Assembly: GCA_963281255.1 (NCBI GenBank)
Contig: OY725495.1
Span: 1,240,001 to 1,304,000 of the forward strand
Origin: Aphrocallistes beatrix
Taxonomy: Eukaryota; Porifera; Hexactinellida; Sceptrulophora; Aphrocallistidae
Direction of reading: 5' to 3'
Length of the DNA stretch: 64,000 bases
Both the position numbers and the translations under genes were made by a program. Position 1 is the first letter of the stretch; each line of letters starts with the position of its first letter. Below the pieces are notes generated by a model. It was not told where the DNA came from and searched no databases. It saw nothing but the letters and a program-made list of their open reading frames with translations. This document shows, piece after piece, positions 826 to 62,578 of the stretch.

Positions 826-837
826 CATATATATATG

Positions 838-1845: not shown

Positions 1846-2440
1846 ACGCTGCGGACACACAGTGTCCGCAAGCTGCGAAGCAAGCAAGCGAAGCGCGCTT
1901 GTATATACATATATGTGTAAACGTTAATCGAGTATTAATAGTAACAAGCGCGCTTCGCTTGCTTGCGCTGCGCGGCTGGCGGACACTTCGTGTCCGCCGG
2001 AGGCTCCCTTCGGTTGCCTGAGGTCACATTGGTTAATTATAAGGGAGATAGCATCTATAAATATGTCTGTCCAACTGTTATAATCGATATCACTCGAAAA
2101 ATCACCAAATTTGACAATATTAAATTTTTTTGATGAGTAATGATGACGTCATAACAAAGTGATGAGTCATCATTTTTTGATGATAGTTGCAGCCTTCTAT
2201 CTCCTATAATGGATGAGTTATGCTCGAATAACTGTGTTGCTTAACTTTTAAAAATGTGACAATGACGTCATAATTCCATGATGAGTCGACATTTTGCTCC
2301 GAGCTCAGAACTTACTGGAGCCATAGCCAAAAAACTCCCACGTGCCAAAAATCAGCTTTCTGCGCCTCGCAGTTTCTTCAATCAATTCGTTACAGATATA
2401 TATATATACACAAACATTAATCGAGTTTTAATAGTAAGGA
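1846..2440 (-). mobile_element. Helitron-like copies, tandem (fragment plus full-length)
   Basis: A + strand 3' fragment ends CGCGCTTG at 1901. It is followed by an isolated 5' tip (1902-1943), then a full minus-strand copy at 1945-2440. The full copy reads, on +, CAAGCGCGCTTCG, the hairpin around GGACACTTCGTGTCC, TGACGTCAT (about 2144 and 2263), ATTCGTTACAGA, (TA)n, and finally TAGTAAGGA. No reading frame of its own is present, so it is non-autonomous. Confidence 0.75.
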
Positions 2441-2547: not shown

Positions 2548-3060
2548 CAAGCGCGCTTCGCTTGCTTGCGCTGCGCGGTTGGCGGATACAAATTGTCCGC
2601 CAGAGGCTCCCTTCGGTCATCTGGGGTCACATTAATTAATTATATGGGAGATAACATCTCTAAATACATCTTTCTTGACTGTCATAATCGAAATCGCACA
2701 GAAAATCACCAAATCTGTCAATTTTTAAATTTTGATGCGTAATGATGACGTCATAACAAAGTGATGAGTCCTCATTTTTTCATGATAGTTGTATCACATG
2801 TGAGGTATATTAATATACCGGTACACATCCTATTAAAAGTTCAGCCTTCAATCACTTTAAAATGGCTGAGTTATGGTCGAAAAACTGAAATTTCTAATTA
2901 TAAAAAAAGGTGACAATGATGTCATAATTCCATGATGAATCGACATTTTCGTCTGAACTCAGAACTTAGCGGAGCAATAGCCAAAGGACTCCCGCAAGCC
3001 AAAATTCAGCTTTCTGTGCCTGGCTGTTTCTTTAATCAATTTGTTACAGATATATATATA
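2548..3060 (-). mobile_element. Helitron-like copy, 5' end replaced by a TA-inserted MITE
   Basis: Begins CAAGCGCGCTTCG and runs to GTTACAGATATATATATA, where a pogo-type MITE begins at 3061. The expected 5' tip is not found beyond that MITE. Confidence 0.75.
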
Positions 3061-3396
3061 CAGTCGAGCCTGCTATAACGGCCACTCTATATAACGGTCG
3101 CCTGTCTATAGCGGTCACCAATGAACAGTCCCGTCCGAAATTCCATAATGTTCAACCTGTGTATAACGGTCACCTGCTCAACGCGGGCAGCGGCCATCCG
3201 TTTGTAGTCCCTTACTGACCCTAAAACTGTGTATAACGGCCATCACCTGTCTATAACGGCCATCTCCTGTCTATAACGGCCATCCTTTTTCACCCTTTTA
3301 TGTGTTTATTACAGGACCTGTTACGAACGATAAGCAAGTTTCATGTAATTACTTCAAGTAATGGATTTCTAAAAACTTGATATTCCTTAAGATTAT
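3061..3396. mobile_element. Pogo-type MITE, truncated at its right end
   Basis: Starts CAGTCGAGCCTGCTATAACG next to TA and contains repeated TATAACGGCCAT motifs. It matches the complete copy at 10645-11089 up to ACTTGATATTC and then diverges, so the right terminal repeat is lost. Confidence 0.65.
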
Positions 3397-3809: not shown

Positions 3810-4812
3810 CATAGCCTACTATAATAAGGCCTCAGAGTAACTTGCGAATTTGGCACTAGGGATGCAGTAGAAGATGGTTGAAGAAATACATGAGCTGCCT
3901 TAAATCATTAACAAAGAACAATAGAGCTTAGGAATGTATTACCAGCATATATAAATATGGTGTCAAAGCACCCATATCCGTTGTTAAAAACTAGATTAGT
4001 CATCAAATGATTGCGCAACAGGTTATATTTGGGTCAAATTTAGTGATTTTCAGAGGTCGTTTAAGGGCACTTCTAAGTGTTTTTATTATAAAGTTTTTCA
4101 CATAGAACTGAGAAGTGAATGTGTTAATACTAAAAATTTGGAATTTTTTCATGTAATGTTCTTACATTCCAGTGTTGCCATGGAAACGTGTTTTGATAGC
4201 AAATAGGCTACTTCCTATTAAGCTATAATACAATTTCTATGTCTTAATTCAATAATGTTATTAGACAATTTATCATATTAGTCACATTTGGTAATTTGTC
4301 GAATATCTCGTAAACCATTGAATTTAGACACAGAAATTGTATTATAGCTAAATAGGAAGTAGCCTATTTGCTATTAAATGGGATTAAATTTGAATGTCTA
4401 GCTATCGCTGTTTTCAAGATATAGCCCCAACTGGCCGAAACACGTTTCCATAGCAACACTGGAATGTAAGAACATTCCATGAAAAAATTCCAAATTTTTA
4501 GTATTAACACATTCACTTCTCAGTTCTATGCAAAAAACCTTATAATAAAAACACTTAGAAGTGCCCTTAAACGGCCTCTGAAAATCACTAAATTTGACCC
4601 AAATATAACCTGTTGCGCAATCATTTGATGACTAATCTAAATTTTAACAACGGATATGGGTGCTTTGACACCATATTTATATATGCTGGTAATACATTAC
4701 TAAGCTCGATTGTGCTTTGTTAATGATTTAAGGCAGCTTATGTATTTCTTCATCCATCTTCTACCGCATCCCTGGTTAAGTTACTCTTAGGCCTTATATA
4801 TAGTAGGCTATG
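3810..4812. mobile_element. Palindromic 1-kb MITE of the P-element type
   Basis: A 1003-bp near-palindrome with ends CATAGCCTAC and GTAGGCTATG. Its arms of 400-500 bp are inverted copies of one another; the left arm lacks about 90 bp near the centre. It is flanked by the 7-bp duplication GCTAAAC (3803-3809 and 4813-4819). It has no coding frame. The terminal repeats, including the subterminal GGGATGC motif, resemble those of the P element at 43107-45869, which suggests P-type mobilisation. Confidence 0.85.
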
Positions 4813-4819
4813 GCTAAAC

Positions 4820-6019: not shown

Positions 6020-6796
6020 ATATATATATCAAATTGCTGGAAATTTAGTGCTGAGCACGAATTTAGCATTAGAATGATGATCTGACATGGTTCAAAGAAG
6101 TTGTTGATCTGGGATTCCGGCGGAAACTATCGAATTTGGTTATTTTTGGGTGACCAGTCATCAATGACCAGTTTTTCACACTTTTGATGGTGAAAAATTT
6201 TTATATACCATATTTTGAAGTTAAGTACTGCTATAAGTTGTCGAATAAGGATATTTGCATGTTATTTAATATTACAAAGCAGTTATAACAAACGGAAATT
6301 GAGGGAAATGTATAAATATTTTCTAAATCCTATTTTCTGAGACTTTTTATCAGCAATTATAAAGGTGATAACTTTTTGTAAATTCAACATAGGAGCGAAA
6401 ACGGGAGTAGAACATAATGAACAGACAGATTTTTGATATTAGGAATAAAAAGAGAATTATGGAAAAAATAGTTTCAAAATTACTAAAAATATAATTCCTC
6501 GGTTGTTTTGCTGTGAATTTTTATTAATTTTCAAAATTTCAAAAATCTGTCTGTTCATTAGTTAGATCATCGATTTATGAATGAATTTGAAAAGTTTCTA
6601 AAGGATTGTAAGCATATTGTGTCCGATTTCTTCCTTGTAAAATGACCAAATTTTTTAAAAATTTTTTTATCTTTTGCAATATTTCAATTATTAATGCAGT
6701 TTTGCAGATAATTCTGCGATTCAAATCTGCACTGAAAAATTAATTGAATCAGTTGAAAAGGTCAAAAGTTAGCTCTTATAGGAAAGGCCAACCTTA

Positions 6797-7708
6797 ACTA
6801 GGGACGGGAGACTAGACGAGAAGATCGTTATATATAAAATACTACAGGCGTTCAATAAGTTCTGATCACTATGTCTTGTAGAGATACATTGAACTAGTTC
6901 CATAAATCGCTCCTAGATAATAGGAATTTGATCGTTTATCTACAAGTTAGTTTTTATTTCATTTCAATTAATCAATTATTTCCAAAGTTATCACGAATTA
7001 TCGTCATTTTCAGTATTCGTGGCCCTCGAATGATCAAAGTTATCACTTCCGAAAACACAATCGATTTAGTCATTAATTTTAGTCATTAATTTGCGTTCCA
7101 ATCAATTAACTCCTTACTTCTAGGTATTCGTGTTATTTTGCTTGACCCATTTGATCTCAACTTGTTTCTCATTGCGGCACACTTAAATATAACTTATAGG
7201 TTATATTCTACAAGCCTTTTTATCGTCAAGATCGAATAGGTAGCGACTCAATATGAATTTATCATTAGGTTCTACACTCGATCTCCTTGATCTACATGCT
7301 GATAATGGCTGAAGAACTCTATATTTTAAATTTTGCTCTTATTAAATTCAAGGCTAGTCACGCCTGCTATAGAATTGGCTAGTGGGTGAACCTAATGATT
7401 ATCATAAAAAATTAATTTCAGAAATATCAAAATCAGGTGAGATAAAAACTTTTCTTCCTCCTCAAAATTCCAAATAAAGTATATGATGACTATAAATTTC
7501 AACACACCTAATACAGGTTACTCCGCTTATCGGGACATTTGATCAAGGATATTTATTTTAAAAAATTTTCACTCTTCCCTTGACAACTGAGGAATGTTAT
7601 TATGAACCAAAACACCCAAAGTGGACCTTTTGGAGCTTTTAGTGTATAATAACAAATTTCAACATGTTATGCGCAGAATACGACACTTTTTTCTATAACT
7701 TCTTTTAA
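6797..7708. other. No gene recognised
   Basis: AT-rich sequence. A short inverted pair, ATTTATCATTAGGTTC near 7256 and GAACCTAATGATTATC near 7388, could mark a small decayed MITE. Confidence 0.3.
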
Positions 7709-7990
7709 GGTTGGCTTTTCCAATGAGAATATTGTTTTTTATCAAAAATTGCCAAAAGTCCTTTTTTATCATTTTTAAATCCCTAAAGGGGTTCGGAACA
7801 TTAATCTAACGATTTTTAGAATTTCAATGCCAATATTTCACCACTTAGAGCCACTTATACCACCTGGTGTCGCTCAAAATAGGACATATTTTTGAAGCAA
7901 AATGTCTCATATCTATAACTTCTTTTAATCATGCCAGATCATCATTTTAATGCTGAGTTCGTCCTCAGCACTAAATTTCCAGCAATTTGA

Positions 7991-8120
7991 TATATATATT
8001 GGACACATTTGGAGAAATCTTTGGCTACCGGTTCCTAGCAACGGCTAGGAATGTGAAACAATTCCTGGCCGTTGCTGGCACGGACAACCAAAAGATTCTC
8101 CAAATATCGTCATTTTATAT
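7991..8120. repeat. Hairpin cassette, copy 2
   Basis: Same design as 5355-5485: CCTAGCAACGGCTAGGAAT faces ATTCCTGGCCGTTGCTGG, inside ATTGGACACATTTGG arms. Confidence 0.65.
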
Positions 8121-8391
8121 ATCAAATTGCTGGAAATTCAATGCTGGACACGAATTTAAAATTCAATCTGACATGATTCAAAGAAGTTATTGATCTGGGA
8201 TTCGGGCGGATACTATCGGATGTGGTTATTTTTGGGTGGCGAGTCATCAATGACGAGTTTTTCACACTTTTGATGGTGAAAATTTTTGATATAACATATT
8301 TTGAAGCTAAGTACTGCCATAAGTTGTCGAATAAGGATATTTGCGTGCTATTTAATATTACAAAGCAGTTAAAACTAATAGAAGTTGAGGG

Positions 8392-9070
8392 TAGGGTTGC
8401 CAGATATCCGGGTTTGATCCGGACAGTCCGGGTTTCGAGCCATTTGTCCGGAGTCCGGGAATGGGATGAATTTGTCCGAGTTTGGAGAATTTTTAGTTCT
8501 GTCCGACTACTCACTACTCAGGACTGTCAATATATTCTATCCGTATCTAAGTTATTTAGTTAGCTATTGCTCTGCTGCAAACGTGTCACTCTCTAATATT
8601 TGAAGAAAGAGTGCAAGTTTGTGAAATTTGGATTATTACTGATTTGTAATGCTACCTTAGTGTACGTATACTACTGAGTACTGACCCTTAACTGCCTAAC
8701 ATGTTTCGTAATGAGTATACTTGGAATCTTCTTTTTGTTTCTGTGTTCAATGGCTTCAACGATGAATTATGATATGTAGATATGTAGTCACGTGGGTCAA
8801 GGGTCATTTTATGTGTCTTTGCAGCTCTGGTTTACAGTGAATTACCTATACATTCAAATTGTTATTTCAAATTTTATTCTCTAAGATTTTAGTTTACCCG
8901 CAATAACTAATAGACGAAATATAATTTGTTTTTCTTGATTATTTATGTATTCTGTATATTTTGACGATAAGTTATTGATACAAATTTAAAATTAGATAAC
9001 ATTACAATAAGCATTTTTTTAGAGAATAAATTATGTCCGGGTTTGGCCTTTTGAAAATCTGGCAACCCTA
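8392..9070. mobile_element. Non-autonomous hAT element with 8-bp target duplication
   Basis: Terminal inverted repeats TAGGGTTGCCAGAT and ATCTGGCAACCCTA. Exact 8-bp duplication GTTGAGGG at 8384-8391 and 9071-9078. The interior repeats GTCCGGG-type motifs near the left end and has no transposase. Eight-bp duplication plus this repeat type fits the hAT superfamily. Confidence 0.85.
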
Positions 9071-9085
9071 GTTGAGGGACATATG

Positions 9086-9827
9086 CAGGGTGGCTCATAA
9101 GTTCTGATACAAGCTTCATTATGTGTAAAATCATTTATATTCAAACTATCTTGGTTATTATGATCTTTAGAGAATGTTATTCGAATATTCTCAATGATTT
9201 TAATAAATTTATCAAGTCTAGGACCTGTAACTGTGTTTTGTATGATGAGTTTTATGGAGAAAAAATGTGTCCTGCACGCAGCGAAAATCGAGAATCAAGG
9301 TCTCAACTTCTGTAAAAATGTCTTTATAATCGATGTCCTATGGCGATTTAGCACCAGATACCTTTCATTCATCATGGAAATATTTCATAAACCCATTGAA
9401 TTCATTATCAGAAACGAGAGAAAGTTATTATTTCACGAGATCAAATTAGGTACATTTTGCAAAATCACCAAAATTCTGATCCAAATGGTTCTCAATATGT
9501 GCTGATATAAACATCCTATATTTCTACAAATTTAGAGTGTTCGAGGGAAATGTGAGAGCCAATTTTTCGTAGAATTTGAAGACTCTAGAAAGATAATTTG
9601 AAAAGCAGTGGGACCTGATACTGGATTTTCGCTGCGTGCCAGGACACATTTTTTCCCAATAAAAATCACCATACAAAACACAGTTCAGGTCTTAGACTGG
9701 AAAAGTCTTCTAAAATCATTGAGAATATTATATTTAGAATCTCTAAAGACCATAATAGCTAAGATTGTTTGAGTATAAGAAATTTTATACTTAATGAAGC
9801 TTGTCACAGAACTTATGAGCCACCCTG
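9086..9827. mobile_element. Palindromic mariner-type MITE (CAGGGTGGCTCATAAG)
   Basis: Ends CAGGGTGGCTCATAAGTTCTG and its inverse ending CCACCCTG. A TA follows on the right; the left flank is TG, probably a mutated TA. Long inverted arms include TGTGTCCTGCACGCAGCG. Related elements lie at 11593-12354, 24205-24390 and, decayed, 62580-63500. Confidence 0.8.
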
Positions 9828-10022
9828 TATAAATATTTTCTAAATCCTATTTTCTGAGACTTTTTTTTCAGCAATTATAGATGTAATAACTTTTGGTAAA
9901 TTCAACATAGAAGCGAAACTCAACGGTTTTGATAGATCAAGAATAGTAGAACAAAATGAAAACCATGCCAGATCATTATTTTAATGTTGATTTAGAGCTC
10001 AGCAATAAATTTCCAGCATTTT

Positions 10023-10141
10023 GATATATATTGGACACATTTATAGAAACTTTTGGCTGCCGGTTCCTAGCAACGGCCAGGAATGTGAAAAAAATTCCTG
10101 GCCGTTGCTAGGCACGGACAACCAATGGTTCAAATGGTTAA
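10023..10141. repeat. Hairpin cassette, copy 3 (near-perfect stem)
   Basis: CCTAGCAACGGCCAGGAAT and ATTCCTGGCCGTTGCTAGG form a 19-bp perfect stem around a short A-rich loop. The outer right arm is cut by the Helitron-like copy at 10142. Confidence 0.7.
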
Positions 10142-10644
10142 CAAGCGCGCTTCGCTCGCTTGCACTGCGGGGTTGGCGGACACTTTGTGTCCGCCGGAGA
10201 TCCCGTTTAGGCGCTTGGGGTCACATTGATTAATTATAAGGGAGATAACATCTCTAAATACGTCTGTCCTACTGTGATAATCGATTTCGCTCGAAAAATC
10301 ACCAAATTTGTCAATTTTTAAAATGTTGATGCGTAATGATGACGTCATAACAGAGTGATGTGTCATCATTTTTTTACTATAGTAGCATCATTATTGAGAT
10401 ATATTAATGTACACATTCTATTAAGGTCTCAGTCTTCTATCACTTAAAATGGCTGAGTTATTGTAGAAATACTGAAATTTCAACATAAAAATGGTGACAA
10501 TGGCTCCATAATTCCATGATGAGTCAACATTTTCGTCTGAGGTCAGAACTTGGTGGAGCCATAGCCAAAAAACTCCCACATGCCAAAAATCAGCTTTCTG
10601 CGCCTTGCAGTTTCTTCAATCAATTCGTTGCAGATAAATATATA
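10142..10644 (-). mobile_element. Helitron-like copy interrupted at its (TA) core
   Basis: Starts CAAGCGCGCTTCG and carries the hairpin GGCGGACACTTTGTGTCC and TGACGTCAT near 10340. It ends at GTTGCAGATAAATATATA, where a pogo-type MITE begins. Confidence 0.75.
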
Positions 10645-11089
10645 CAGTCGAACCTGCTATAACGGCCACGCTGTATAACGGTCACCTGTCTATAGCGGCC
10701 ACCATTGAACAGTCCCGTCCGAAATTCCATAATATTGACCCTGTGTATAGCGGTCACCTGCTCAACGCGGCCAGCGGCCACCCATTTGCAGTCCCTTACT
10801 GACCCAAAAACTGTGTATAACGGCCATTATCTGTCTATAATGGTCACTACCTGTCTATAACGACCATCACCTTTTTCACATTTTATGTGTTTATGACAGA
10901 ACCTGTTACGAACGATAAACAAGTTTCATTATATTACTTCAAGTAATAGATTTCTAAAAGCTTGATATTCATTTCACTACGTCGATACCTTTTGGGGATT
11001 AAGACAATCACCTGTATATAACGGCCACCTGTGTATAACGGCCAATCTTGTCCAATCCCTTGGGTGGCCGTTATATACAGATTCCACTG
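10645..11089. mobile_element. Pogo-type MITE, complete
   Basis: Terminal repeats CAGTCGAACCTGCTATA and its degenerate inverse ending GATTCCACTG, flanked by TA on both sides. The inside repeats TATAACGGCCAC. It shares sequence with 3061-3396 and 39245-39648. Confidence 0.75.
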
Positions 11090-14645: not shown

Positions 14646-14945
14646 TCCTTACTATTAAAACTCGATTAATGTATATATATTTATTTATTTATATATAGGT
14701 ACACGTATATATATTTCCCTATAACGAATTGATTGAAGAAACTGCCAAACGCTGAAAGTTGATTTTTGGAATGTGGGAGTCTTTTGGCAATGGCTCCACT
14801 AAGTTCTGAGTTCGGACGAAAATGTCAACTCATCATGAAATTATGACGTCATTGCCACCTTTTTTACAAGAGCTAGACATTCAAATGTAAGTCTATTTGA
14901 TAGTGAATAGACTACTTCCTATTAAGCGATATCTAATATAATTTA

Positions 14946-14979: not shown

Positions 14980-14981
<2 letters not shown>

Positions 14982-15643
14982 AGCGCGCTTCGCTTGCTTG
15001 CGCTGCGCGGCTGGCGGACACTTTGTGTCCGCCGGAGGTTCCCTTCGATCGCCTGTAGGTGACATTGGTTTATTAAACGGGATATATCATCTCTAAATAT
15101 GTCCATCTTAGTTTTAAAATCGATATCACTCGAAAAAACACCAAATTTGTCAATTTTTTAAATTTGATGAGTAATGATGACGTCATAGCAAAGTGATGAG
15201 TCATCATTTTTTGATGATAGTTGCATCATATGTGAGGTATGTCAGTATACTTATTCTATTAAAATTTCAGCCTTCTATCTTCTATAATGGATGAGTTATG
15301 CTCGAATAACTGTGTTGCTTAACTTTTAAAAATGTGACAATGACGTCATAATTCCATGATGAGTCGACATTTTGCTCTAAACTCAGAACTTACTGGAGCC
15401 ATAGCCAAAAGACTCCCACATGCCAAAAATCAGCCTTCTGCGCCCGGCAGTTTCTTCAATCAATTCGTTACAGATATATATATATATACCGTATTTCCCT
15501 GAATAAGCGCCGGGGCTTGAATAAGCGCCGGTTTGAATAAGCGCCGGGTCTAAAGGGTGCACGAAATAAATAAGCTCCCGGGCGCTTATTCGAAGCAATA
15601 CGGTATATATAAATATACAATAATCGAGGTTTAAAAGTAAGGA
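14980..15643 (-). mobile_element. Helitron-like copy with a MITE in its (TA) core
   Basis: Full copy: CAAGCGCGCTTCG, hairpin GGCGGACACTTTGTGTCC, TGACGTCAT near 15178 and 15343, CGTTACAGATATATA, then an inserted 117-bp MITE. The 5' tip ending AAAAGTAAGGA follows at 15643. Confidence 0.75.
15488..15604. mobile_element. Small MITE, ACCGTATT ends
   Basis: Ends ACCGTATTTCCC and AATACGGT, interior repeats GAATAAGCGCCGG. It sits inside TA-rich sequence of a Helitron-like copy. Confidence 0.65.
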
Positions 15644-16220: not shown

Positions 16221-16752
16221 CATATCCCTCTGTATATAAGGCCTGCCATCTAGATCTCAAAAATGAACCATGGATGCGGTCGAAAATGGTTGAACTAATA
16301 CATAAATCGGCCTAAAATCATTAACAACGCAGAATAGAGCTTCAGAATGTATTACTAGCATACATAAATGTGGTGTTAAAGTACCCATATCCGTTTTAAA
16401 AATTTAGATTAGTCATCACATGATTCGCAATAGATTTAATTTGGGACAAATTTAGTGATTTTCAGAGGCCGTTTAAGGCCTTTTTCTCATAGAACTAAGC
16501 TGTGAATGGGCTTGATGCAAACAATTTGGAAGTTTTTCATTAAATGTTGCTATATCCCAGCGTTGCTATGGAAACGCATTTTGCTCAGTTGTCATATCTT
16601 GAAAACTGCATTAACCATGCATTCAAATTTGATCTTATTTAATAGCCAATCGACTGCTTCCTATAAAGCCCTAATATAATTTCCACGTCTAGATTCAATG
16701 GTTTACGAGTTATTAGACAATTTATCCTTGCGATTAAAACTCGATTAATGTA

Positions 16753-16803
<51 letters not shown>

Positions 16804-17698
16804 GTAACGAATTGATTGAAGAAACTGCCAGTCACAGAAGGCTGATTTTTGGAATGTGGGAGTTTTTTGGCTATGGCTCCTGAGCTCAGACGAAAATGTC
16901 GACCCATCATGGAATTATGACGTCATTGTCACATTTAAAAAGTTAACCAATACAGTTATTCGAGCATAACTGAGCCATTATAGGAGATAGAAGGCTGAAA
17001 TTTTAATAGAAAATGTATACTAACATGCCTCACATATGATGCAACTATCATCAAAAAATGATGACTCATCACTTTGTTATGACGTCATCATTACGCATCA
17101 AAATTTTAAAAATTGACAAATTTGGTGATTTTTCGTGCGATATCGATTATGACAGTAGGACAGACGTATTTAGAGATGTTCTCTCCCTTATAATTAATCA
17201 ATGTGATCCCAGGCGCCCGCAGGGCGCCTCCGGCGGACACAAAGTGTCCGCCAGCCGCGCAGCGCAAGCAAGCAAAGCGCGCTTGTCACTTTAATCACAT
17301 TTGATAATTTGTCTTATAACTCTTAAACCATTGAATCTAGACGTGGAAATTATATTTGGGCATTATAGGAAGTAGTCGATTGGCTATTAAATAAGATCAA
17401 ATTTGAATGCGTAGTTATTGCAGTTTTCAAAATATGACCTCAACTGAGCAAAATGCGTTTTCTAAATTTGTCCAAAATATAATATATTACGCAATCATGT
17501 GATGACTAATCTAAATTTTAACAATGGATATGTGTACTTTGACAGCATATTTATATATGCTAGTGATACATTCCCAAGCTCTATTCTTGTGTCGTTAATT
17601 ATTTTAGTTAGATCATTTATTAGTTCAACCATCTTCGACCGCATCCCTGGTCCATTTTTGAGATTTAGATGGCATGCCTTATGGTACAGAGGGCTATG
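16221..17698. mobile_element. Divergent P-type MITE split by a Helitron-like insertion
   Basis: Ends CATATCCCTCTGTATATAAG and, at 17698, GGTACAGAGGGCTATG. The interior aligns with the 3810-4812 element (CCCATATCCGTT, TTAGTGATTTTCAGAGG). It is interrupted at A16724 / T17286. Confidence 0.7.
16725..17285 (+). mobile_element. Helitron-like element with readable empty site
   Basis: 561 bp: TCCTTGCGATTAAAACTCG, (TA)n, CTGTAACGAATTG, TGACGTCAT near 16918 and 17080, hairpin GGCGGACACAAAGTGTCCGCC, terminal hairpin CAAGC...CGCGCTTG. Removing it joins GACAATTTA to TCACTTTAATCACATTTG, which matches the undisturbed MITE. The target is therefore A|T with no duplication, the signature of rolling-circle Helitrons. 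It has no Rep/helicase frame, so it is non-autonomous. Confidence 0.85.
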
Positions 17699-17781: not shown

Positions 17782-18338
17782 TCCTTACTATTAAAACTCG
17801 ATTAATGTATATATAGTATGTGTGTACTATACATGTGTTTATATCTCTGTAACGAATTGATTGAAGAAACTGCCAGGCACAGAAAGCTGATTTTTGGCAT
17901 GTGGGAGTCTTTTGGCTATGGCTCCACTAAGTTCTGAGCTCAGAGCAAAATGTCGACTCATCATGGAATTATGACGTCATTGTCACATTTTTAAAAGTTA
18001 AGCAATGCAGTTATTCGAGCATAACTCAGTCATTATAGGAGATAGAAGGCTGAAATTTGAATAGAATCTGTATACTAACATACCTCACATATGATACAAC
18101 TCATAAAAAAATGATAACTCATCACTTTGTTATGACGTCATCATTACTCATCAAAATTTTCAAAATTGACAAATTTGGTGATTTTTGGAGAGATATCGAT
18201 TTTAACACCAAGATGGACATATTTAGAGATGTTCTCTTCCTTATAATTAACCAATGTGCTCTTAAGCGACCGAAGGGAGCCTCCGGCGGACACCAAGTTC
18301 CCGCCAGCCGCGCAGCGCAAGCAAGCGAAGCGCGCTTG
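17782..18338 (+). mobile_element. Helitron-like copy, full length
   Basis: TCCTTACTATTAAAACTCG to CGCGCTTG, with both TGACGTCAT octamers (about 17970 and 18133). It is immediately followed by the 5' tip of another copy, giving a head-to-tail tandem. Confidence 0.8.
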
Positions 18339-18376
18339 TACTTACTATTAAAACTCGATTAATGTGCATATATATA

Positions 18377-19705
18377 CAGAATGCGGCCATATTTATTTAG
18401 AATGACAAAAATGTAGATATATGGAAAATAGAGGAGGTTCATTATACTTTTTAAGCTGCAATCTAATGATACATAAGTAGGGGCTAATATTTAATTTTGA
18501 AACCATGGTTATCCAACACCATATTTTTAGGCATTCTTTTAGGCATTGACTCCCAGTATGGACATAAAAAATAAGGATCTATGTTTTCCCAGATTTTTTA
18601 AAGACGTTTCTTCAGTTCTCCAATGGTCGTCGGACGCTTGTGCGGGAGTCGATTTAGTTGGTATTTAATCCAGGCGAACAGATTTTCAATCGGATTTAAA
18701 TCCGGACTTTGGCTGGGCCATATGAAGGTATTCTTTGGCATTTTTTCTTTCATCCATGCTTTGGCAACGTTAGAACTGCTTAGGGTCGTTCTCTTGGACC
18801 AAAAACCATTTATTCTCATGAAAAACCTTGGCTTGGTCTAATAAATGCCACTCTAGGATCTTACAAAAGGATGACCCAGTCAAGTTTTGACTAAATATAC
18901 ATAAAGGAAATGTCCCACACGAGGAGAAGGCAGCCCAGATGTGTATTTTAGACGAGTGTTTTGTTGTAGGATAAAATCGTTTTTGTTCCCCCTTGTCCAT
19001 ATCTTTACACGACCTCTTGATAACCAAAATGAAGCTTCATCTGCGAAAATCGCATGCTGCCATCGAGTACGCTTATTTTTCTTGGTCCATAAAATGCGTT
19101 TAGACCTGTTAGCTTCACTAAGCATTGGTACAGCTGTCGGGAAACCATTTTGGTTTTTAAGTTTTTTTGCGCATCGACGCACCATTTGAATGGAAGCTGT
19201 ACCCCCTGAAGAAAGTATTTTGGCATGTATATCATGCAATGTAATTGCTCCATTACTTCTTCTGATTTTTTGCGATACTTTGTATTTGATTGCATCGTGT
19301 ACAACTGGAGGTCTACCAGCCCCCTTTTGATGGTTTAGTGGGGCATCTTTGGTCATTCGCTTTCTTGTATTATAAACTGTGGCCAATGAAACATCAACTA
19401 TTTGAGAAATCTCTTTAGGAGTGTGTTTTTTTCCATCAATTAGTGTTTTAATTTGTTGTCTCTTTGAATATTGCGACATCAATTCAATACAAGAATCTAA
19501 CTTATTTTAGAAAGATACACAGAAAATAATTAAACATTCCGATGACGTCACCAATATTTAAAATAAAAAATTATACACGAATAATATTTTTGAAATTGAG
19601 AAGTCATGTTTTTCGAAAGTATGATGTTGATAATTTAACTTGGTTGTGTATAAATCGTAATAATACTGTATTCTTGGTTTTCTATATAAATATGGCCGCA
19701 TACTG
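18377..19705 (-). mobile_element. Tc1-like transposon
   Basis: 1329 bp, ends CAGAATGCGGCCATATTTAT and CAGTATGCGGCCATATTTAT (inverted), TA duplication on both sides. It contains one transposase gene on the minus strand. Confidence 0.9.
18598..19482 (-). pseudogene. Tc1-like transposase, frameshifted
   Basis: The frame starts MMSQYSKRQQIKTLI with paired helix-turn-helix DNA-binding domains (KEISQIVDVSLATVYNTRKR) and a GRPPVV hinge. The catalytic core shows the first Asp in IFADEASFW and the final Glu in PSQSPDLNPIENL. The frame breaks around 18990-19030 and again near 18790, so three reading frames are needed to cover it. Where Tc1 family members have QDNDPKH, this copy reads QENDPK: the expected second catalytic Asp is Glu. 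It is therefore almost certainly inactive. In life the enzyme cuts and pastes its own element at TA sites in the nucleus. Confidence 0.85.
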
Positions 19706-19731: not shown

Positions 19732-20199
19732 ACAAAAGTATTCGACCACCACAGAAACCTCCATACAAATAGTATTAAAGTGGATCTGTACATAAAGGAA
19801 TATGTACACAAATTATTAGAAATACTCTATTTTTGATTTCTAATTCCTAATCTACACATTCTAATTACTCATAATTGAGATCCTCAAATCAATTACTAAC
19901 TCCCAAAATTATAAATATCTACCTTTGATACTTGATGCTACTTGTCCCGAGTCACAGCCATTATATATGGTGGCGATTAGTAATATAAAGTGGCAGAGGT
20001 TGATACTTTTCTAAATAAGAATTAGTATTTGTATTTGAAAGTTTCAAAAATTAGTAATTCGGATGTGTAGTTTACGAATCTGAAATCAAAAATAGAATAT
20101 CTCTTCTGTTTGATCACATATTCCATTATGAATAGATCCACGTTAATACTATTTGTATGGAGGTTTTCGTGGTGGTCGAATACTTTAGTCCGGGTAGTG
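19732..20199. mobile_element. Palindromic mariner MITE (CAGTACCCGGACAAAAG)
   Basis: Ends CAGTACCCGGACAAAAGTAT and inverse, TA flanks, arms over 200 bp inverted (CTCATAATTGAG region near the middle). A second copy is at 58056-58524. Confidence 0.8.
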
Positions 20200-20719
20200 T
20201 ATTTATATATCTGTAACGAATTGATTGAAGAAACGGCCGGGCGCAGAAAGCTGATTTTTGGCATGTGGGAGTCTTTTGGCTATGGCTCCAGGAAGTTCTG
20301 AGTTCAGAGCAAAATGTCGACTCATCATGGAATTATGACGTCATCGTCACATTTTTAAAAGTTAGCCAATACAGTTATTCGAGCATAACTCAGCCATTAT
20401 AGGAGATAGAAGGCTGAAATTTTAATAGAATCTGTATACTAACATAACTCACATATGATCAACAATCATCAAAAAATGATGACTCATCACTCTGTTATGA
20501 CGTCATCAATACGCATCAAAAATTTTAAAAATTGACAATTTTGGTGATTTTTCGAATGATATCGATTTTATAATATATATCACTAAGATGGACATATTTA
20601 GAGATTCTATCTCCTTTATAATTAACTGTGACCCCAGGCTACCGAAGGGAGCCTCGGGCGGACACAAAGTGTCCGCTAGCCGCGCAGCGCAAACAAGCGA
20701 AGCCCGCTTGTACCTATAA

Positions 20720-23898: not shown

Positions 23899-24209
23899 CA
23901 AGTGCGCCAGGCTTGCTTCCGCTGCGCGGCTGGTCGACATTTTATGTGCGTCAGAGGCATCCTTTGGTCTCATATGTTAATAATAATTATATATAAAGTA
24001 GATAACATCTCTAAATATGTATATCTTACTATTATAATCGATATCACTCGAAAATCACAAATTTTTTTGATGCGTAATGATGACGTCATAGCAGAGTGAT
24101 GAGTCACCATTTTTTGATGATTAGTGATTTATCGCCTAAAATGGGTGAGTTATAGTCGGAAAATTAAAATTTCTAATTTTAATTAAGGTGACAATGACGT
24201 CATTATCCC
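23899..24209 (-). mobile_element. Decayed Helitron-like copy, 5' half missing
   Basis: CAAGTGCGCCAGGCTTGC, TGACGTCAT at about 24083 and 24193, then cut by a mariner-MITE fragment. Confidence 0.65.
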
Positions 24210-24365
24210 ATAAGTTCTGTCCCAAGCTTCATTAGGTATAAAAATTTTTATACTCAAACAGTCTTAGTTATTATGGTCTTTAGAGATTGTAATTCAAATA
24301 TTCTCAATGATTTTATGAGATTTTTCGAGTCTAAGAACTGGAACTGTGTTTTGTATGGTGAGTTT
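24210..24365. mobile_element. Fragment of CAGGGTGRC mariner MITE
   Basis: AAGTTCTGTCCCAAGCTTCA through GTGTTTTGTATGGTGAG aligns with the left arm of 11593-12354. Confidence 0.6.
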
Positions 24366-25099: not shown

Positions 25100-26780
25100 A
25101 AGTTGGAGTCTGCGTTCGGTTTCTAAAATCTGCGTAAAAGAAATCTGATATTAGGATCCTGATATCTGTCTTATATAGACCATAGTGGTGTTCTAGAGCA
25201 TCATTCTGGAAGTTAGAAGGTACTGGTAGCTGCAGTTCTCTGTAAGTTGTTTGACCAGGAGTGATAATGCCTCACAAGTGTGTCTAAAGCTGGTAAACGT
25301 TTGTGCAGTTAACTTTCCAGATATAAATGGTGGATAAACACAGCAATCCAACCAAGAGAAAGTTATAAAAATGTTTGGTGCGTAGCAAAGTTCAGGATAA
25401 ATAGATTTAGAAGTAAACTTAATAGTTGAAATACTGGCTCGAGAAATTGAAACGTAGAAACCTTTGTTCATCACTTACATTTTGTCACTTATATTTTGTT
25501 GTGTACTTAATTGGCAATAATCGATTCTGTGAAAAATGAATGTATTACCAAAGTTTTTAAGATTTAATCAATTATTAGTTATCTGTACACACTGCTTTGA
25601 CAAACCCCCACAAGCTTCAATATCCTAAAAAGTAGATTTAACAATGGGATGCAATGTTTTTGCGGAAGAAGAACCTAAAGGTAATAACCGGACAATAGAG
25701 GATAACCTGGTTGATAAACTAGAAAATATCATAGAAAATACAGTAGTGTGTGTATCGTCTGGGTTGTCAATCGTCCGATTATCCTTCCCCCCTTATACGA
25801 CGCTTCACTATGACTGTGAACTTTATCCATTTGAAGAATGGCATAACGCCCAAAATCGTTAAATGTGGAAGCAGCCTCTCCTAGAATTTTAGTATACTCG
25901 CTCTCAATTCCAAGACTATTTTTTATCTTCAATAAATTACGCTCGTGCGGAAGAATTATACATTTAGAGCGCTGAATAAGACGGCTGGTGATATTCCCTG
26001 AATTTTTAATCATAAGACCTGAGTTAGAATGCTATAACGGTGAGTATGTTTCCTAACGATTAAGTATTTCAGCTGATTGTGCAAAAAAGTAAGACGCATT
26101 GTCAAATCATTCTCGGGTTCGAAATCAGATATTGAATGAATAGAATTTAATGTGTCAACAGCATTGATGATATTATGAATGGCATTATTCACGTGTTGAA
26201 TCAAAGGTTCGACTTTATTAATGATATTTTCAAATGACATAATATCGGTAAGTGAGTGGCAGGATAGTTGAATTTTGTTTGTTTCCTTATAAAAAGTCTT
26301 ACAATATAATTTTTCATCAATAATGATTGAACTTTCGATTGTAGAAATTTCATTATGATATTGTATCAAATATGACTGTAGAATTTGGTTATCCTCCTTT
26401 CCTTCTTGTCATCTAGAGATTGTCTTTGATAACAACAGTAGCGCCCGCCAGATAGCTAGGACAGTTAGGAAAGATGTTAGGGATGCACCCTTCTTGAGAC
26501 CTACTTTCTTCCTTTCCTTCTCAATAATCTTCAATCCATCATGGAATTGAATGGTCTTTACGATGTCTTCTTCATGGAAGTGGTGTATGCAAGTATTGTG
26601 ATTAAAGTGTATTATCCAACATACCCTCAATCGTTTGTTCATTTCGTAGTCTTCTCTCCGCCGAGGTTTAGTTTGGTACCATTTTTCACGAGTCTCATTG
26701 TCAGCAGGAAAAGTGAAAATAGGTATGTATTCATCTTTATCACAATAATTTGATTTAAAACCAGGTACCAGACAGGCCAT
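25100..26780 (-). pseudogene. P-element (THAP-type) transposase relic
   Basis: From 26780 the minus strand starts MACLVPGFKSNYCDKDE and continues IFTFPADNETREKW and CIHHFHEED, a THAP zinc-finger (C2CH) with one Cys replaced by Phe. A coiled middle part follows at 26369-26010. At 26013-25729 it reads KNSLGIESEYTKILGE and ILQMDKVHSHSEASYKGG, the MDE(I/V)H...SYKGG block of P/THAP9 transposases. The C-terminal LLTSRMM...LEHHYGLY motif is at about 25220-25150. Stops and frameshifts separate these pieces. The intact enzyme would be a GTP-dependent cut-and-paste transposase. Confidence 0.7.
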
Positions 26781-27050
26781 GTTGAAAAATATATATGTGA
26801 ATCATCAGAGTAATAGGGTAGAATGGAGCAGATGTGAAAATGAATGTTGAATAGACTGGCGATGTGCAGATAGGCGATTTGAGTGGGTGATAATATTTTG
26901 AGAACATTTTGAAATATCGTAAAAATATTGTTTTTAATTATTCTGGGTAACCAAAATGTGGTTAGTAATATTATTCAGTGACGTTTATTAGAAATAAGTT
27001 GACATATGGTATATTCAGATGCTTATTTCGTAATTACACCATTGTATCTA
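26781..27050. other. Intron sequence, no feature
   Basis: AT-rich; no right terminal repeat of the P relic is visible. Confidence 0.3.
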
Positions 27051-28800: not shown

Positions 28801-28825
28801 AACTCTTTTTAATTATAAACAAATC

Positions 28826-29367
28826 CTTACAATTAAAACTCGATTAGTGTTTATATATATATATATATATACAAGCGCACTTAGCTTGCTTGCTTGCGCT
28901 GCGCGGCTGGAGGATACTTTGTGTCCGCCAGAGGCGCCCTTTGGGCCCCTGGGGTAACATTGATTAATTATTAGGGAAATAACATCTCTAAATACGTCTG
29001 TCTTACTGTTATAATCGATATCGCACGGAAAATCACCAAATTTGTCGATTTTTACAATTTTGATGCGTAATGATGGCTTCATAACAGAGTGATGAGTCAT
29101 CATCTTTTGTTGATAGTTGTATTATATTTGAGATATACTAATATATACATTTTATTAAAATTTTTGCCTTCTATTACCTAAAATGACTGAGTTATGTCGA
29201 AAAACTGAATTTTCTAATTATTAAAAAGGTGACAATGACGTCATAAATCCATGATGACTCGACATTTTCGTCTGAACTCAGAACATAGTGGAGCCATAGC
29301 CAAAAGACTCCCACATGCCAAAAATCAGCTTTCTCTGCTTTGCAGTTTCTTCAATCAATTCGTTACA
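28826..29367 (-). mobile_element. Helitron-like 5' tip and body in opposed orientation
   Basis: A + strand 5' tip (TCCTTACAATTAAAACTCG, 28826 on) and (TA)n run directly into a minus-strand body from CAAGCGCACTTAGC at 28872 to ATTCGTTACA at 29367. The two share one TA core. TGACGTCAT lies near 29236. Confidence 0.7.
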
Positions 29368-32330: not shown

Positions 32331-32488
32331 GACTTATCACTCTGTTATGACGTCATCATTACGCATCAAAAATTTGAGTTGTTTTCCACCTTATAATTAA
32401 TCAATGTGACCCCAGGCGCCCAAAGGGCGCCTCCGGTGAACGCAAAACGCTCGCCAACCGCGCAGCGCAAGCAAGCGAAGCGCGCTTG
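32331..32488 (+). mobile_element. Helitron-like 3' part
   Basis: From TGACGTCATCATTACGC to the terminal CGCGCTTG, with a variant hairpin GGTGAACGCAAAACGCTC. Confidence 0.7.
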
Positions 32489-36960: not shown

Positions 36961-37664
36961 GGTTTTATTAAATTGCATCACACCTAACAAAATTTAGTTA
37001 ATTAAAATATTAATTAAACTGTGGTCACGCTTTTGGTAATGGGTGTCTTTAAATATTCAATAAATTAAAGACTCAAAATGGGGATTAGTAACACCAAATA
37101 GGGCTGATTCAGGATTGGTAGGGCCATTGCATTTCCAAACCACCTAGATCCTACGTCAATGGAAATAAGTAATATTGAATGATTTAAGTTCAAGAGCCAC
37201 ATTGTATTGGGCTTTTTTTTTTAATCCTAACCCTTGACCCAAATGTTAGCAGTGTCCGATAATAATCGTTGGAAATGCACCCTATCAATATTTATGCCTA
37301 ATTTAGGTTCAGCATTCAATTTCTGATCATTTGATGTGTCGCATGAACAATTTAAAGAATATACTCCTCAAGAGTGCTGTTACTTAACATTCCATTCTCA
37401 TATTTATTTTCTTGTGACACCTACTTTTGCTTCGCTCTGCATTCAGCGAGACCTGTGCCACCTTTGTTTTGTAAATTAATTTCTTAGAGTTAATGACAAA
37501 TAGAGCACTGTGATACAGTGCTAAACTATACTTGTCTAGGACTGACACATGGAAGAAGAATCCCAATCTGCCCTTGTGGAAAGTTATCATTTGACTTTTA
37601 AGGGATAGTGTTAGATTTATTGATTATTTCTTGAATATGAAAAACGGATATCGAAAATCCTTAC
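36961..37664. other. Intron sequence, no feature
   Basis: AT-rich; no supported frame. Confidence 0.3.
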
Positions 37665-38149
37665 TGTCAAAACTCGATTAATGTTTGCGTAGTAGTATAC
37701 AAGAACCCTTCGTTTGCTTGCCCTGAGCAGCTGGCGGACACTTTGTATCCGCCGGAGCCGCACTTTGGGTGCCTGGGCTTACATCGATTTATTATAAGGG
37801 AGATTACATTCCAAATGTATGTCTTCCTGCTAAAATCGATATCACTCGAAAAATCATCAGATTTGTCAATTTTTAAATTTTTGATGCGTAATGTGACGTC
37901 ATAACAGAGTGATGTGTCATCTTTTTTGACGATACTTGTATCACATATGAATAGTATTAATATACAGATTCTCTTAAAATTTCATCCTTCTATCACTTAA
38001 AATGACTGAGTTATATTCGAAAAACTGAAATTTCAAATGATAAAATGGGTGACGATGACGTCATAAATCCATGATGAGTCGAGATTTTCATCTGAGGTAA
38101 GAACGAGTTGAGCCATAACCAAAAAACTCTTCAATCAATTCGTTGCAGA

Positions 38150-38184
<35 letters not shown>

Positions 38185-38674
38185 CTGTAACGAATTGATT
38201 GAAGAAACTGCCTGGCCCAAAAAGCTGATTTTTGGCATGTGGGGGTCTTTTGGCTATGGCTCTACTAAGTTCTGAGCTCAGACGAAAATGTCTACTCATC
38301 ATGGAATTATGGCGTCATTGTCACTTTTTTTATAATGAGAAATTTCAGTTTTTCGACCATAACTCAGCCATTTTAGGTGATAGAAGGCTGAAATTTTAAA
38401 AGAATATGTATATTAATATATCTCACATATGATGTATAGTGAAGAAATGATGACTCCTCACTTTGTTATGACGTCATCATTACGCATCAAAAATTTAATA
38501 ATTTTAAAATTTGGTGAGTTTCCGAGTGATATCGATTTAAACACTAAGATGGGTATATTTTGAGATGCTATTTCCCTTATAATTAACCAGTGTAACCACA
38601 AGCGACTGAGGGGTGTCTCTGGCGAACATTAAGTGTCTGCCAGCCGCGCAGCAAAAGCAAGCGAAGCGCGCTTG
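37665..38674. mobile_element. Head-to-head pair of Helitron-like copies around one (TA)n
   Basis: After a + 5' tip (37665-37699), a minus body runs 37700-38148. It is followed by (TA)n at 38149-38184 and a plus body 38186-38674 ending CGCGCTTG. Neither body has its own 5' tip at the shared centre. TGACGTCAT occurs near 37906, 38056 and 38471. Confidence 0.75.
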
Positions 38675-38684
38675 TATATATATA

Positions 38685-39225
38685 TCCTTACTATTAAAAC
38701 TCGATTAATGTTTGTGTATATATATATATATCTGTAACGAATTGATTGAAGAAACTGCCTGGCACAGAAAGCTGATTTTTGGCATGTGGGAGTCTTTTGG
38801 CTATGGCTCCAGTAATTTCTGAGCTCAGAGCAAAATGTCGACATCTTCATGGAATTATGACGTCATTGTCACATTTTTAAAAGTTAAGCAATACAGTAAT
38901 TCGAGCTTAACTCAGCCATTACAGGAGATAGAAGGCTGAAATTTTAATAGAATCTGTATACTAACACGCCTCACATATGATGCAACTATCATCAAAAAAT
39001 GATGACTCATCACTTTGTTATGACGTCATCATTACTCATCAAAATTTTAAAATTGACAAATTTGGTGATTTTTCGAGTGATATCGATTTTAAAACTAAGA
39101 TAGACATATTTAGAGATTATATCTCCCTTATAATTATCCAATGTCACCTCCAGGCGACCGAAAGGAGCCTCCGGCGGACACGAAGTGTCCGCCAGCCGCG
39201 CAGCGCAAGCAAGCGAAGCGCGCTT
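38685..39225 (+). mobile_element. Helitron-like copy, full length
   Basis: TCCTTACTATTAAAACTCG, (TA)n, CTGTAACGAATTG, TGACGTCAT near 38859 and 39020, hairpin GGCGGACACGAAGTGTCC, CGCGCTTG. Confidence 0.85.
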
Positions 39226-39244
39226 GTATATATATATATATATA

Positions 39245-39648
39245 GTGGGACCTGTATATAACAGCCACCCAAGGGACTACAAAATTGGCCATTATACACA
39301 GGTGACTGTTATATACAAGTGATTGTCTTAATCCCTAAAATCTATCGATGTAGTGCACTAAATATCAAGTTTTTAGTAATCCATTACTTGAAGTAGTAAC
39401 ATGAAACTTGTTTATCGTTCGTATCAGGTCCTGTAATAAACACATAAAAAGATGAAAAAGGTAGTGGCCGTTATAGACTGGTGATGGCCGTTATACACTT
39501 ACATTTAGGGTCAGTAAGAGACTGAAAACGGGTGGCCGCTGACCGCGTTGACCTGGTGCTCGCTATACACAGGTTCAATATTATGGAATTTAGGACGAGA
39601 CTGTTCATTGTTGATCGTTATATAGAGTGGCCGTTATAGCAGGTTCGG
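39245..39648. mobile_element. Pogo-type MITE between two Helitron-like copies
   Basis: GTGGGACCTGTATATAACAG on the left, GGCCGTTATAGCAGGTTCG on the right. Same family as 10645-11089, inverted relative to it. The outermost bases are lost. Confidence 0.7.
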
Positions 39649-40126
39649 ATTGATTTAAGAAACTGCCGGGCACTGCAAGCTGATTTTGGTAGGTAACAAT
39701 CTTTTGGTTATGGCTTCGCTAATTTCAGACGAAAAGTCTACTCATCATGGAATTATGACGTATTTGTCACATTTTTAATGATTTAAATTTCAGTTTTTCG
39801 GCTGTAACTCAGCCATTTTAAGTGATGGATGGCAGAAATTTTAATAAAATGTGTATACTTCTGTTAATATATTTAAAATATGATACAACTATCATTGAAA
39901 ATGTAACCCAACACTCTGTTATGACGTTATTATTGTGTATCAAAGATTTCAACATTGTCTTCTGTGATGATTTTTTAGTGATATCGACTATAAAAGTAAG
40001 ACAGACATATTTAGTGATGTTTTCCTATTGATAATTAATCAATGCAAGCCCAGACGCCCAAATGTCGCATCTAGCGGACGCAAAGCGTCCACCACCCGCG
40101 CAGCGCAAGCAAGTGAAGCGCACTTG
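39649..40126 (+). mobile_element. Helitron-like copy, 5' end replaced
   Basis: From GATTGATTTAAGAAACTGCC to GCGCACTTG. The hairpin carries a paired change (GGACGCAAAGCGTCC). Confidence 0.7.
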
Positions 40127-40586: not shown

Positions 40587-40903
40587 TCCTTACTATTAAA
40601 ACTCGATTATTGTCTTGTGTATGTATATATATATATATATATATAAGCGCACTTCGCTTGCTTGCGCTGCTCAGCAGTGGGACACTTTGTGTCCGCCGGA
40701 GGCGCCCTTTATGCGCCCAGGATCACATTGATCAATGAAAAGGTAGATAACACCTCTAAAGACGTCCTTCTTACTGTTATAATCGATAGCACTCGAAAAA
40801 TCACAAAATTTGTCAATTTTCAATGTCTGAGGCGTATGATGACATCATAACGGAGTGATGAGTCATCATTTTTGATGATAGTTTTATTATATGTGAATAA
40901 TAT
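40587..40903 (-). mobile_element. Helitron-like 5' tip opposed to a truncated body
   Basis: + tip TCCTTACTATTAAAACTCG, (TA)n, then a minus-strand body from AAGCGCACTTCGC that fades at about 40903. Confidence 0.65.
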
Positions 40904-42617: not shown

Positions 42618-42812
42618 TCCTTACGATTAAAACTCGGTTAATGTTTGTGTATATGTATATAAATATTTATATCTGTAACGAATTGACTGAAGAAACTGTC
42701 AAGCGCAGAAAGTTGATTTTTGGCATTTGAGAGTCTTTTGGCAATGGCTCCACTAAATTCTGACCTCAGACGAAACTGTCGACTCATCATGGAATTATGA
42801 CGTTATTCTCCC
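42618..42812 (+). mobile_element. Helitron-like 5' part beside G-alpha exon 3
   Basis: TCCTTACGATTAAAACTCG, (TA)-rich core, body to ATTATGACGTTATTC, then stops about 40 bp before the exon 3 acceptor. Confidence 0.7.
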
Positions 42813-43315: not shown

Positions 43316-44082
43316 CAAGCGCGCTTTGCTTGTTTGCGCTGCGCGGCTTGCGGACACTGTGTGTCCGCAGAGTCGCCCTTCGGGCGCCTGGAGTTACTCA
43401 ATCTCAACTATTTTTGGAATTTTTTTCCTTTATACATATGTATATTGTAAACAAAAGTCAACGAATAATTTTTCATATGGAATCCGAAAATTTGATATTC
43501 GAAATCTACACCCCTGAAAACCCCATGTCAACCGTTGAAAGCAAGTCTCTAGCCTATTTTTGTAATTTGTTTACTTTACGTATCTATTGTAAACAAAAGT
43601 AAACAAATAATTTATCGTATCGATCTGAAAATTTGATATTCGAAATCTACACCCCTAAAAACTCTATGTCAACCGTTGGAAGCATAATTTTCAAAATTCG
43701 TCAAATCGTGTGAAAATATGTATATAAAGGTGTGAAAATATACACATAACCTTTTTACTGCCATACACTATAATATAATTGAGACATCTATTTAAGTGAT
43801 TGCTTTGAAGTATTAATAACAATGACAGCCTAAAATAGAGTCATTCAATGATTTATATTGTGATAGTGAAGCCGTACATAGTATTGTATAGAAAAGGTGT
43901 GAAACATTGTTTTCCATTTTTTTTGCAGAGGTGTGTAAATTTCGCTTAGATTTTCTAATTTAATCGTAGATACATCATTTGACACCTACATGCCAAATTT
44001 CATATCTCTACGACTTGCCAATTCTTCAATCAATTCGGACAAACAAACAAACAAAAAAATCCTAGTATTTTAATATATAAGA
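43316..44082 (-). mobile_element. Second subfamily of Helitron-like element
   Basis: Its 3' end (CAAGCGCGCTTTGC plus hairpin CGGACACTGTGTGTCCG) matches the main family. Its 5' end, read on the minus strand, is TCTTATATATTAAAATACTA after A, next to (GTTT)n and CCGAATTGATTGAAGAA. The body holds a direct repeat of about 110 bp (near 43436 and 43582; both units contain GATATTCGAAATCTACACCC). No Rep/helicase frame. Confidence 0.7.
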
Positions 44083-62490: not shown

Positions 62491-62578
62491 CAAGCGTACT
62501 TCACTTGTTTGCGCTGCGCACATGTGTCCGCTGGAGACGTCCTTTGGTGCCTAGGCTCACATTGATTATTTGCAAGGG
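62491..62578 (-). mobile_element. Helitron-like 3' tip
   Basis: CAAGCGTACTTCACTTGTTT, GCGCTGCGC and TCACATTGATTATTTG, then lost. Confidence 0.55.

Follow-up and report, generated by a model that had tools for sequence, protein, structure and literature searches.

Helraiser/Helibat1 (Myotis), as described in PMC4778049, ends in CTAG, carries a palindrome 11 nt inside this end and encodes a protein of 1,496 aa. CTTG ends occur among the by-products of Helraiser and were also seen with maize Helitrons (PMC4778049), and a CTTG 3' end is reported for HELPO2 of Pleurotus ostreatus (PMC4289320). Two readings were offered for a pair of adjacent maize Helitrons, namely insertion at GT or insertion at the AT of the existing copy's 5' edge (PMC2267711). 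For Helentrons and DINE-1 (HINE), a TT target, subterminal inverted repeats and an endonuclease are described (PMC4067079), and for the Helitron2-like FoHeli, TNAT-type or undefined targets and asymmetric inverted repeats (PMC5148889).

We analysed a 64,000-nt stretch of sponge DNA (the window; plain coordinates refer to it) around a copy at 16725-17285. This copy belongs to a real, abundant family with slightly unusual tips, which is no new kind of element. A sequence-only reading had called the family Helitron-like, an assignment borne out and strengthened by long Rep-helicase copies that share both ends. The features of the window are collected in the table.

Insertion site and copies in the window

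The copy reads TCCTTGCGATT...AAGCGCGCTTG between A16724 and T17286; its TC start, CTTG end, upstream A and downstream T could be read directly, as first reported. It lies within a palindromic MITE, again as claimed, with arms 16591-16726 and 17303-17438 that are 93% complementary. The further arm pairs are 16331-16425 with 17493-17587, 16426-16455 with 17462-17491, and 16572-16591 with 17441-17460. Joining the flanks after removal of the copy gave ..GACAATTTA/TCACTTT.. (the slash marks the junction), which aligns to two unfilled MITE copies in the window. These two copies bear out the proposed insertion between A and T without visible duplication. The alignment to 49160-49045 is gap-free against joined positions 2-117 (82.8%), and that to 4220-4329 is identical at the junction (GACAATTTATCA), with a 6-nt gap elsewhere. 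Since the unfilled copies are palindromic, each also aligns in the opposite orientation: 4344-4257 gap-free, and 49030-49139 with compensating 1-nt gaps, the first of them 3 nt from the junction. The host bases after the copy, TC, equal the element's own start and therefore leave the boundary of this copy, taken alone, ambiguous by 2 nt; other copies narrow this to the usual 1-nt (T) ambiguity, which cannot be removed.

The empty-site test included 31 candidates with both ends, some of which pair ends of neighbouring copies. Their 60-nt flanks were joined and compared with 266.7 kb. The base before the 5' end was A in 22 and G in nine, and the base after the 3' end was T in all 31. Empty sites were found at two loci, 16725-17285 and a tandem pair (dimer) at L049:976-2053. 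Three unfilled copies of the latter (L031, window 3535-3428 and L043) show no gap at the junction, L043 having a 5-nt gap 6 nt away from it. Because all three align across the junction, the whole pair occupies a single A/T site.

Genome-wide searches covered 28 contigs (100.5 Mb). The counts rest on exact words and are lower bounds for the family; reversed controls were zero for each of them. Of 4059 occurrences of the 3' word AAGCAAGCGAAGCGCGCTTG, 3987 have T as the next base; of 2043 occurrences of the A-type 5' word, 1930 have A immediately before them. The 72 and 113 places with another base run against the A/T rule. Chance is excluded, since the 21-mer ending CTTGT occurs 3987 times genome-wide and its reversed control not once. 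Among 100 listed 5' exceptions the preceding base was G in 69, T in 20 and C in 11, and 45 of the 69 G cases coincide by position with listed head-to-tail junctions. The B-type 5' word with a preceding A occurs 104 times. Within 248.5 kb we located 45 3'-end-like sites. CTTG ends 38 of these, always with T next, and the two following host bases are TA (24), TT (10), TC (3) or TG (1); the other seven read CAAA (three), TTGA, GTTG, TTAA and CTTA. Word counts and empty sites agree on an A/T target without visible duplication, which together with the TC start is what is found in Helitrons. An exact 26-nt pattern had no match in viral_contigs or genome_contigs; these are viral and prokaryotic collections, so the result is little informative.

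The window had been said to hold more than 20 copies. We found 32 merged similarity blocks (8717 of 64,000 bases), in line with this claim, although the blocks overlap or nest in places and their number is hence not a copy number. Seventeen of the 45 3' sites lie in the window, the diverged end at 62491 makes 18, and a doubtful short end is also listed at 11110. The proposed second subfamily (B) at 43316-44082 was likewise recovered, with the 5' end ascribed to it and the 3' end of the A type. Several copies besides the focal one are flanked by (TA)n stretches. At four palindromic junctions (28824/28872, 37658/37700, 40587/40645 and 1901-1945) an inverted 3' end directly adjoins a short 5' piece. 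These may be nested insertions into (TA)n that later lost parts; the (TA)n in the 5' region of A copies would offer a ready A/T target.

Table. Family copies, their insertion host and 3' structures in the window
Positions	Strand	Feature	Basis
1846..1901	+	B-type 3' end fragment	
1945..2440	-	A-type copy, both ends	
2548..3062	-	A-type copy with 3' end	
4220..4344	.	unfilled MITE copy (empty site)	joined-flank alignment
10142..10646	-	A-type copy with 3' end	
14646..14864	+	A-type copy, 5' part	
14980..15643	-	A-type copy with 5' end at 15643 and an interruption of about 115 nt	
16331..17587	.	inverted-repeat (MITE-like) element, insertion host of the focal copy	arm pairs
16725..17285	+	focal copy, almost certainly a non-autonomous A-type Helitron; both ends present, A/.../T	sequence ends and joined-flank alignment
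16751..16802	+	(TA)n stretch in 5' region of focal copy	
17211..17229	+	predicted 3' hairpin 1, GC-rich	fold; 255/315 pair cells kept, whole in 13/40 copies
17232..17252	+	predicted 3' hairpin 2, 9 bp	fold; 320/354 pair cells kept, whole in 17/40 copies
17257..17285	+	3' terminal segment, two mutually exclusive predicted folds, ends CTTG	fold and 40-copy alignment
17782..18338	+	A-type copy, both ends	
18339..18376	+	A 5' fragment directly after CTTG of copy 17782..18338, head-to-tail; begins with TA instead of TC	
20198..20710	+	A-type copy with 3' end	
23899..24211	-	diverged A-type copy with 3' end	
28824..28871	+	A 5' fragment, inverted 3' end immediately after	
28872..29367	-	A body with 3' end, opposite in orientation to 28824	
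32332..32488	+	A-type 3' part	
37658..38674	+	composite: A 5' fragment 37658-37699, inverted A body 37700-38184 (minus), then plus A body	
38685..39226	+	A-type copy, both ends	
39646..40126	+	diverged A-type copy with 3' end	
40587..40644	+	A 5' fragment, inverted 3' end immediately after	
40645..40896	-	A 3' part, inverted relative to 40587; last base at 40644 reads CTTA	
42618..42810	+	A-type copy, 5' part	
43316..44082	-	non-autonomous B-type copy; 5' end that of gene-bearing L039, L040, L042	
49030..49160	.	unfilled MITE copy (empty site)	joined-flank alignment
62491..62577	-	diverged 3' end	

Other features were noted in the window. Tc1/mariner-like fragments lie at 47667-48200 and 48237-48728 (+; Pfam HTH_Tnp_Tc3_2 and DDE_3), at 53632-54102 (+; DDE_3 match below cut-off) and at 18880-19506 (-; HTH only, below cut-off). 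A THAP-domain frame (PF05485) at 26409-26801 (-) is possibly P-element-like or a host gene. Long overlapping frames at 33118-34831 (-) look hAT/ZBED-like by eye, and a 450-aa part of them had no Pfam match at E 0.001.

Gene-bearing copies with the same ends

The decisive test named by the sequence-only reading was a full-length Rep-helicase element with these ends, and five such elements of 9.2-9.9 kb exist. A profile search with PF14214 (Helitron_like_N) gave 106 genome matches, certain of which are fragments of a single copy. From four long-frame loci (L039, L040, L041, L042) we extracted 10 kb and then lengthened these by 8 kb; in each of them A precedes TC and T follows CTTG. All five elements, the fifth being L035, end CTTG/T. 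At the 5' end, L041 and L035 are of the A type like the focal copy, and L039, L040 and L042 of the B type.

The three B-type elements are 97-99% alike and span 9.5-9.9 kb, from TCTTATATATTAAAACTC at the start, preceded by A, to GCGCACTTG at the end, followed by T (oriented coordinates L039 877-10825, L040 938-10447, L042 868-10454). Their 5' end closely resembles that of copy 43316-44082 in the window, and in L040 CTTG is directly joined, head-to-tail, to the TC of another B copy (L044:7554). L041 starts TCCTTACTATTAAAACTCGAT after A like A-type copies and ends GCGCGCTTG before T, 9.5 kb apart (709-10213). L035, also of the A lineage, has both ends (L056:704, L058:1116) at a distance of 9.2 kb. 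Unbroken frames of 1947-1970 aa are present in three of the five (L040, L041, L042); the frame of L039 is broken (1531 + 452 aa), as is that of L035, with two stops in the Rep match. BLAST with two gene regions matched 29 of the 30 Rep loci from the family search, L033 giving no match, and distinguished two lineages that are about 69% alike in DNA.

Repeats also occur in these elements: minisatellite arrays lie 3' of the Rep-helicase gene (L039 8094-9010, L041 7507-7957, L042 8130-8598, in gene orientation), and a repeat with a 69-nt period occupies the coding region for the N-terminal repeats. Two pairs of Rep loci have identical scores and are possibly segmental duplications, L024/L025 (C2:5470199 and 5481661, about 11 kb apart in opposite orientation) and L036/L037 (C2:5642281 and 5661563, about 19 kb apart).

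Pfam lists Helitron_like_N, PIF1 and Pif1_2B in both the L041 and the L042 protein, OTU in L042 and STPR repeats in L041, and no endonuclease domain in either. DGNCLYR near the end of the L041 protein is presumably an OTU-like motif; Pfam lists no OTU for L041. When the L041 protein was compared with the PDB by phmmer, Helraiser (7lcc) came first with 1036 bits over residues 175-1646 (1,472 residues). The HUH motif GLPHAHIL and the two tyrosines of KYLYKYVYKG, which we take to hold the catalytic residues, were read in both proteins, and in L041 they align to GLPHAHIL and KYLFKYIYKG of Helraiser.

Because of the phmmer match and since no endonuclease domain is listed, the family belongs, as judged from its proteins, with Helraiser among the Helitrons and not with the Helentrons. 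An element akin to Helentrons or HINE, rolling-circle relatives that have an endonuclease and subterminal inverted repeats and insert at TT, would account for the OTU domain of L042, and the 3' stem-loops and microsatellite recall DINE-1/HINE (PMC4067079). But neither protein has a listed endonuclease domain, the target is A/T and not T/T (A before TC in 1930 of 2043), and the closest solved protein is that of Helraiser. We therefore rejected Helentron identity, which is very improbable, on target and domains. Asymmetric terminal inverted repeats of the Helitron2 kind were not seen by eye. Even less probable, to a negligible degree, is a DDE-transposon MITE or a LINE or tyrosine-recombinase derivative sitting at A/T by chance: the copies are short, AT-rich and high in number and the window holds Tc1-like DDE fragments, but both ends are carried by Rep-helicase elements and the empty sites lack a duplication. 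The Rep-helicase copies with the same ends rule out such a sole source.

Taken together, shared ends, A/T target, empty sites and three unbroken Rep-helicase frames make it almost certain that 16725-17285 is a non-autonomous A-type Helitron, mobilised in trans by the Rep-helicase of full-length Helitrons of the same genome. The shared 5' ends suggest that A-type copies are served by the A-type protein and not by both types indiscriminately. Helitrons are mobile DNA presumed to spread by rolling-circle replication. By analogy with the work on Helraiser, an HUH nuclease with two tyrosines would nick at A/TC and the helicase would peel off one strand 5' to 3'. The GC-rich 3' hairpins would then halt the enzyme, the strand would be cut after CTTG, and the circle or strand would be joined into an AT dinucleotide. 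Where the 3' stop failed, the enzyme would read on to the next terminator (end bypass), and copies with a dead internal terminator may be traces of such events.

3' terminus, inner ends and head-to-tail pairs

That CTTG stands in place of CTRR was confirmed by the 3987 CTTG ends followed by T, compared to 18 CTRR ends followed by T in the same exact context (CTAG 15, CTGG 2, CTGA 1). The canonical Helitron end CTRR is thus replaced by CTTG here. Since CTTG exceptions are published, this bars the label 'canonical ends', not membership of the Helitrons, and the CTTG terminus is not new (PMC4778049, PMC4289320). Software that requires CTRR would by design miss these ends; a single exact 3' word already accounts for 3987 of them with T in the 100.5 Mb.

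For the 3' structure we aligned 40 ends, namely the 45 sites minus five lacking an end (CAAA three times, TTGA, TTAA), with one GTTG and one CTTA retained. The fold z of the last 80 nt is -4.4 for the focal copy and -3.8 for a B-type gene-bearing copy. Two details of the sequence-only reading were not supported. The 6-bp stem of CAAGCG with CGCTTG is not present in the focal copy, where CAAGCA and CGCTTG form 5 bp followed by an A.C mismatch. A hairpin at the very end is also not secure. The last 33 nt can form either this terminal stem or a subterminal hairpin stopping 5 nt before the end. Folding with DNA energies, G-T pairs off, favours the subterminal hairpin in 24 of the 40 copies, the terminal stem in 11 and neither in five, two of which (L007:3003-3082 and window 10142) form another stem reaching the last base.

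A functional stem at the very end, with CTTG inside it, is rather improbable. Pair counts put it slightly ahead: 226 of 240 pair cells are kept and all six pairs are present in 29 of the 40 copies, compared to 256 of 278 and 22 whole copies for the subterminal hairpin. In the copy at 40126, moreover, T-A replaces C-G within the stem. However, the fifth pair is broken in all three B-type gene-bearing copies (L043:746, L044:7554, L046:7547), and the single compensated change may reflect two deaminations, since the fifth and sixth pairs involve CpG sites. Covariation was uninformative for choosing between the folds, the columns being nearly invariant. Because the columns hardly vary, the choice of the subterminal hairpin is a preference from predicted folds and no proof. 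Canonical Helitrons have a hairpin about 10-12 nt from the 3' end; here the last one ends 5 nt from the terminus or at it.

Several gene-bearing copies carry fossil 3' ends. The working A-type end of L039, L040 and L042 is preceded, at a distance of about 121 nt, by a B-type end that has decayed. L041 and L035 have a dead end some 133 nt inside their working end. L019 ends CTTG/T at the older place, where the end of L041 and L035 is dead. The 3' part of a short copy was found upstream of the gene in all five A-lineage copies examined (L041, L035, L019, L023, L015), of which only L041 is unbroken, the other four having stops in the Rep match. In L041, L035, L015 and L023 this relict is traceable as far as GCAAGCAA(ACGA)A, at the loop of the last stem; there, about 10 nt before a proper end would be reached, it breaks off, and all four share the continuation TGTTTACTAAT. 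The alignment stops earlier in L019, and part of the relict is deleted in L035. A similar break occurs at L004:896, and the last hairpin's loop is where dead terminators tend to be broken. For the B copies it is equally possible that the last letters simply decayed by point changes.

These inner ends fit the end-bypass model of Helraiser (PMC4778049), as natural traces of bypass within gene-bearing copies. Selection accounts for part of them, because an intact inner end would stop the enzyme. A possible but tentative history is that the A-type gene-bearing Helitrons descend from a short non-coding copy whose 3' terminator was lost, so that it extended into a Rep-helicase gene; the B type would later have taken the A-type terminator, and L041 and L035 would have replaced theirs once more, L019 keeping the older end. 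In the opposite direction, short copies may instead have been cut from the leader of a gene-bearing copy by termination there.

One pattern search for truncated 3' ends (GCGAA followed by unlike letters) gave 56 places, which continue with T (35), CGCG or CGCA (19), CACG (one, L059) or CAAT (one). The CGCG, CGCA and CACG continuations are single-base variants of the intact end. Loop-truncated GCGAA ends followed by T in L061, L062, L063, L066 and L067 often run into (TA)n or the 5' ends of other copies; L061, L062 and L066 have GCGAA/TATA joins resembling nested-copy junctions.

Genome-wide, 112 exact CTTG/TC head-to-tail junctions were found. Base composition implies roughly 10 million AT sites; several thousand insertions placed on these at random would be expected to produce only a few such junctions, and insertion next to an existing copy therefore seems favoured. 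Rolling-circle dimers from one event would also explain this excess over random AT insertion, and the partner is the nearest relative in one of six loci (L052), and the second nearest for the upstream copy of L048. However, in these six loci, the first six of one list, partner identity is 0.915-0.972 (mean 0.935), compared to a mean of 0.933 between different tandem loci (60 pairs). The mean over all 372 non-partner pairs is 0.839, but older rows and rows with poor alignment contribute to it. As the partners resemble each other no more than copies from different tandem loci do, the sequences favour re-insertion into the A/T at the 5' edge of an existing copy as the best reading. Dimers are disfavoured, on six loci only, and appear unlikely. 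The 112 junctions offer a natural set for deciding the origin of head-to-tail Helitron pairs.

Relation to described elements

The family offers passenger and gene-bearing copies, empty sites and the stages before and after replacement of a 3' terminator. With Helraiser (PMC4778049) it shares the Rep-helicase over 1,472 residues, the TC start, the A/T target and a 3' hairpin; end bypass yields new 3' ends there, some of them CTTG. It differs from Helraiser by its CTTG end, several hairpins and frames of about 1,950 aa with STPR repeats (L041) or OTU (L042). HELPO2 has an AT target, a 3' CTTG and a subterminal hairpin as well, but is fungal and is likened by description, not by sequence (PMC4289320). 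Helentrons and DINE-1 resemble the family in abundant non-autonomous copies, a microsatellite, a 3' stem-loop and OTU (PMC4067079), but differ in the target, inverted repeats and endonuclease given above. FoHeli likewise has non-canonical ends, and self-insertion was proposed for its composite copies (PMC5148889), but targets and inverted repeats differ. Directly adjoining copies are also known from maize, with one pair described in PMC2267711, compared to the 112 junctions found here.
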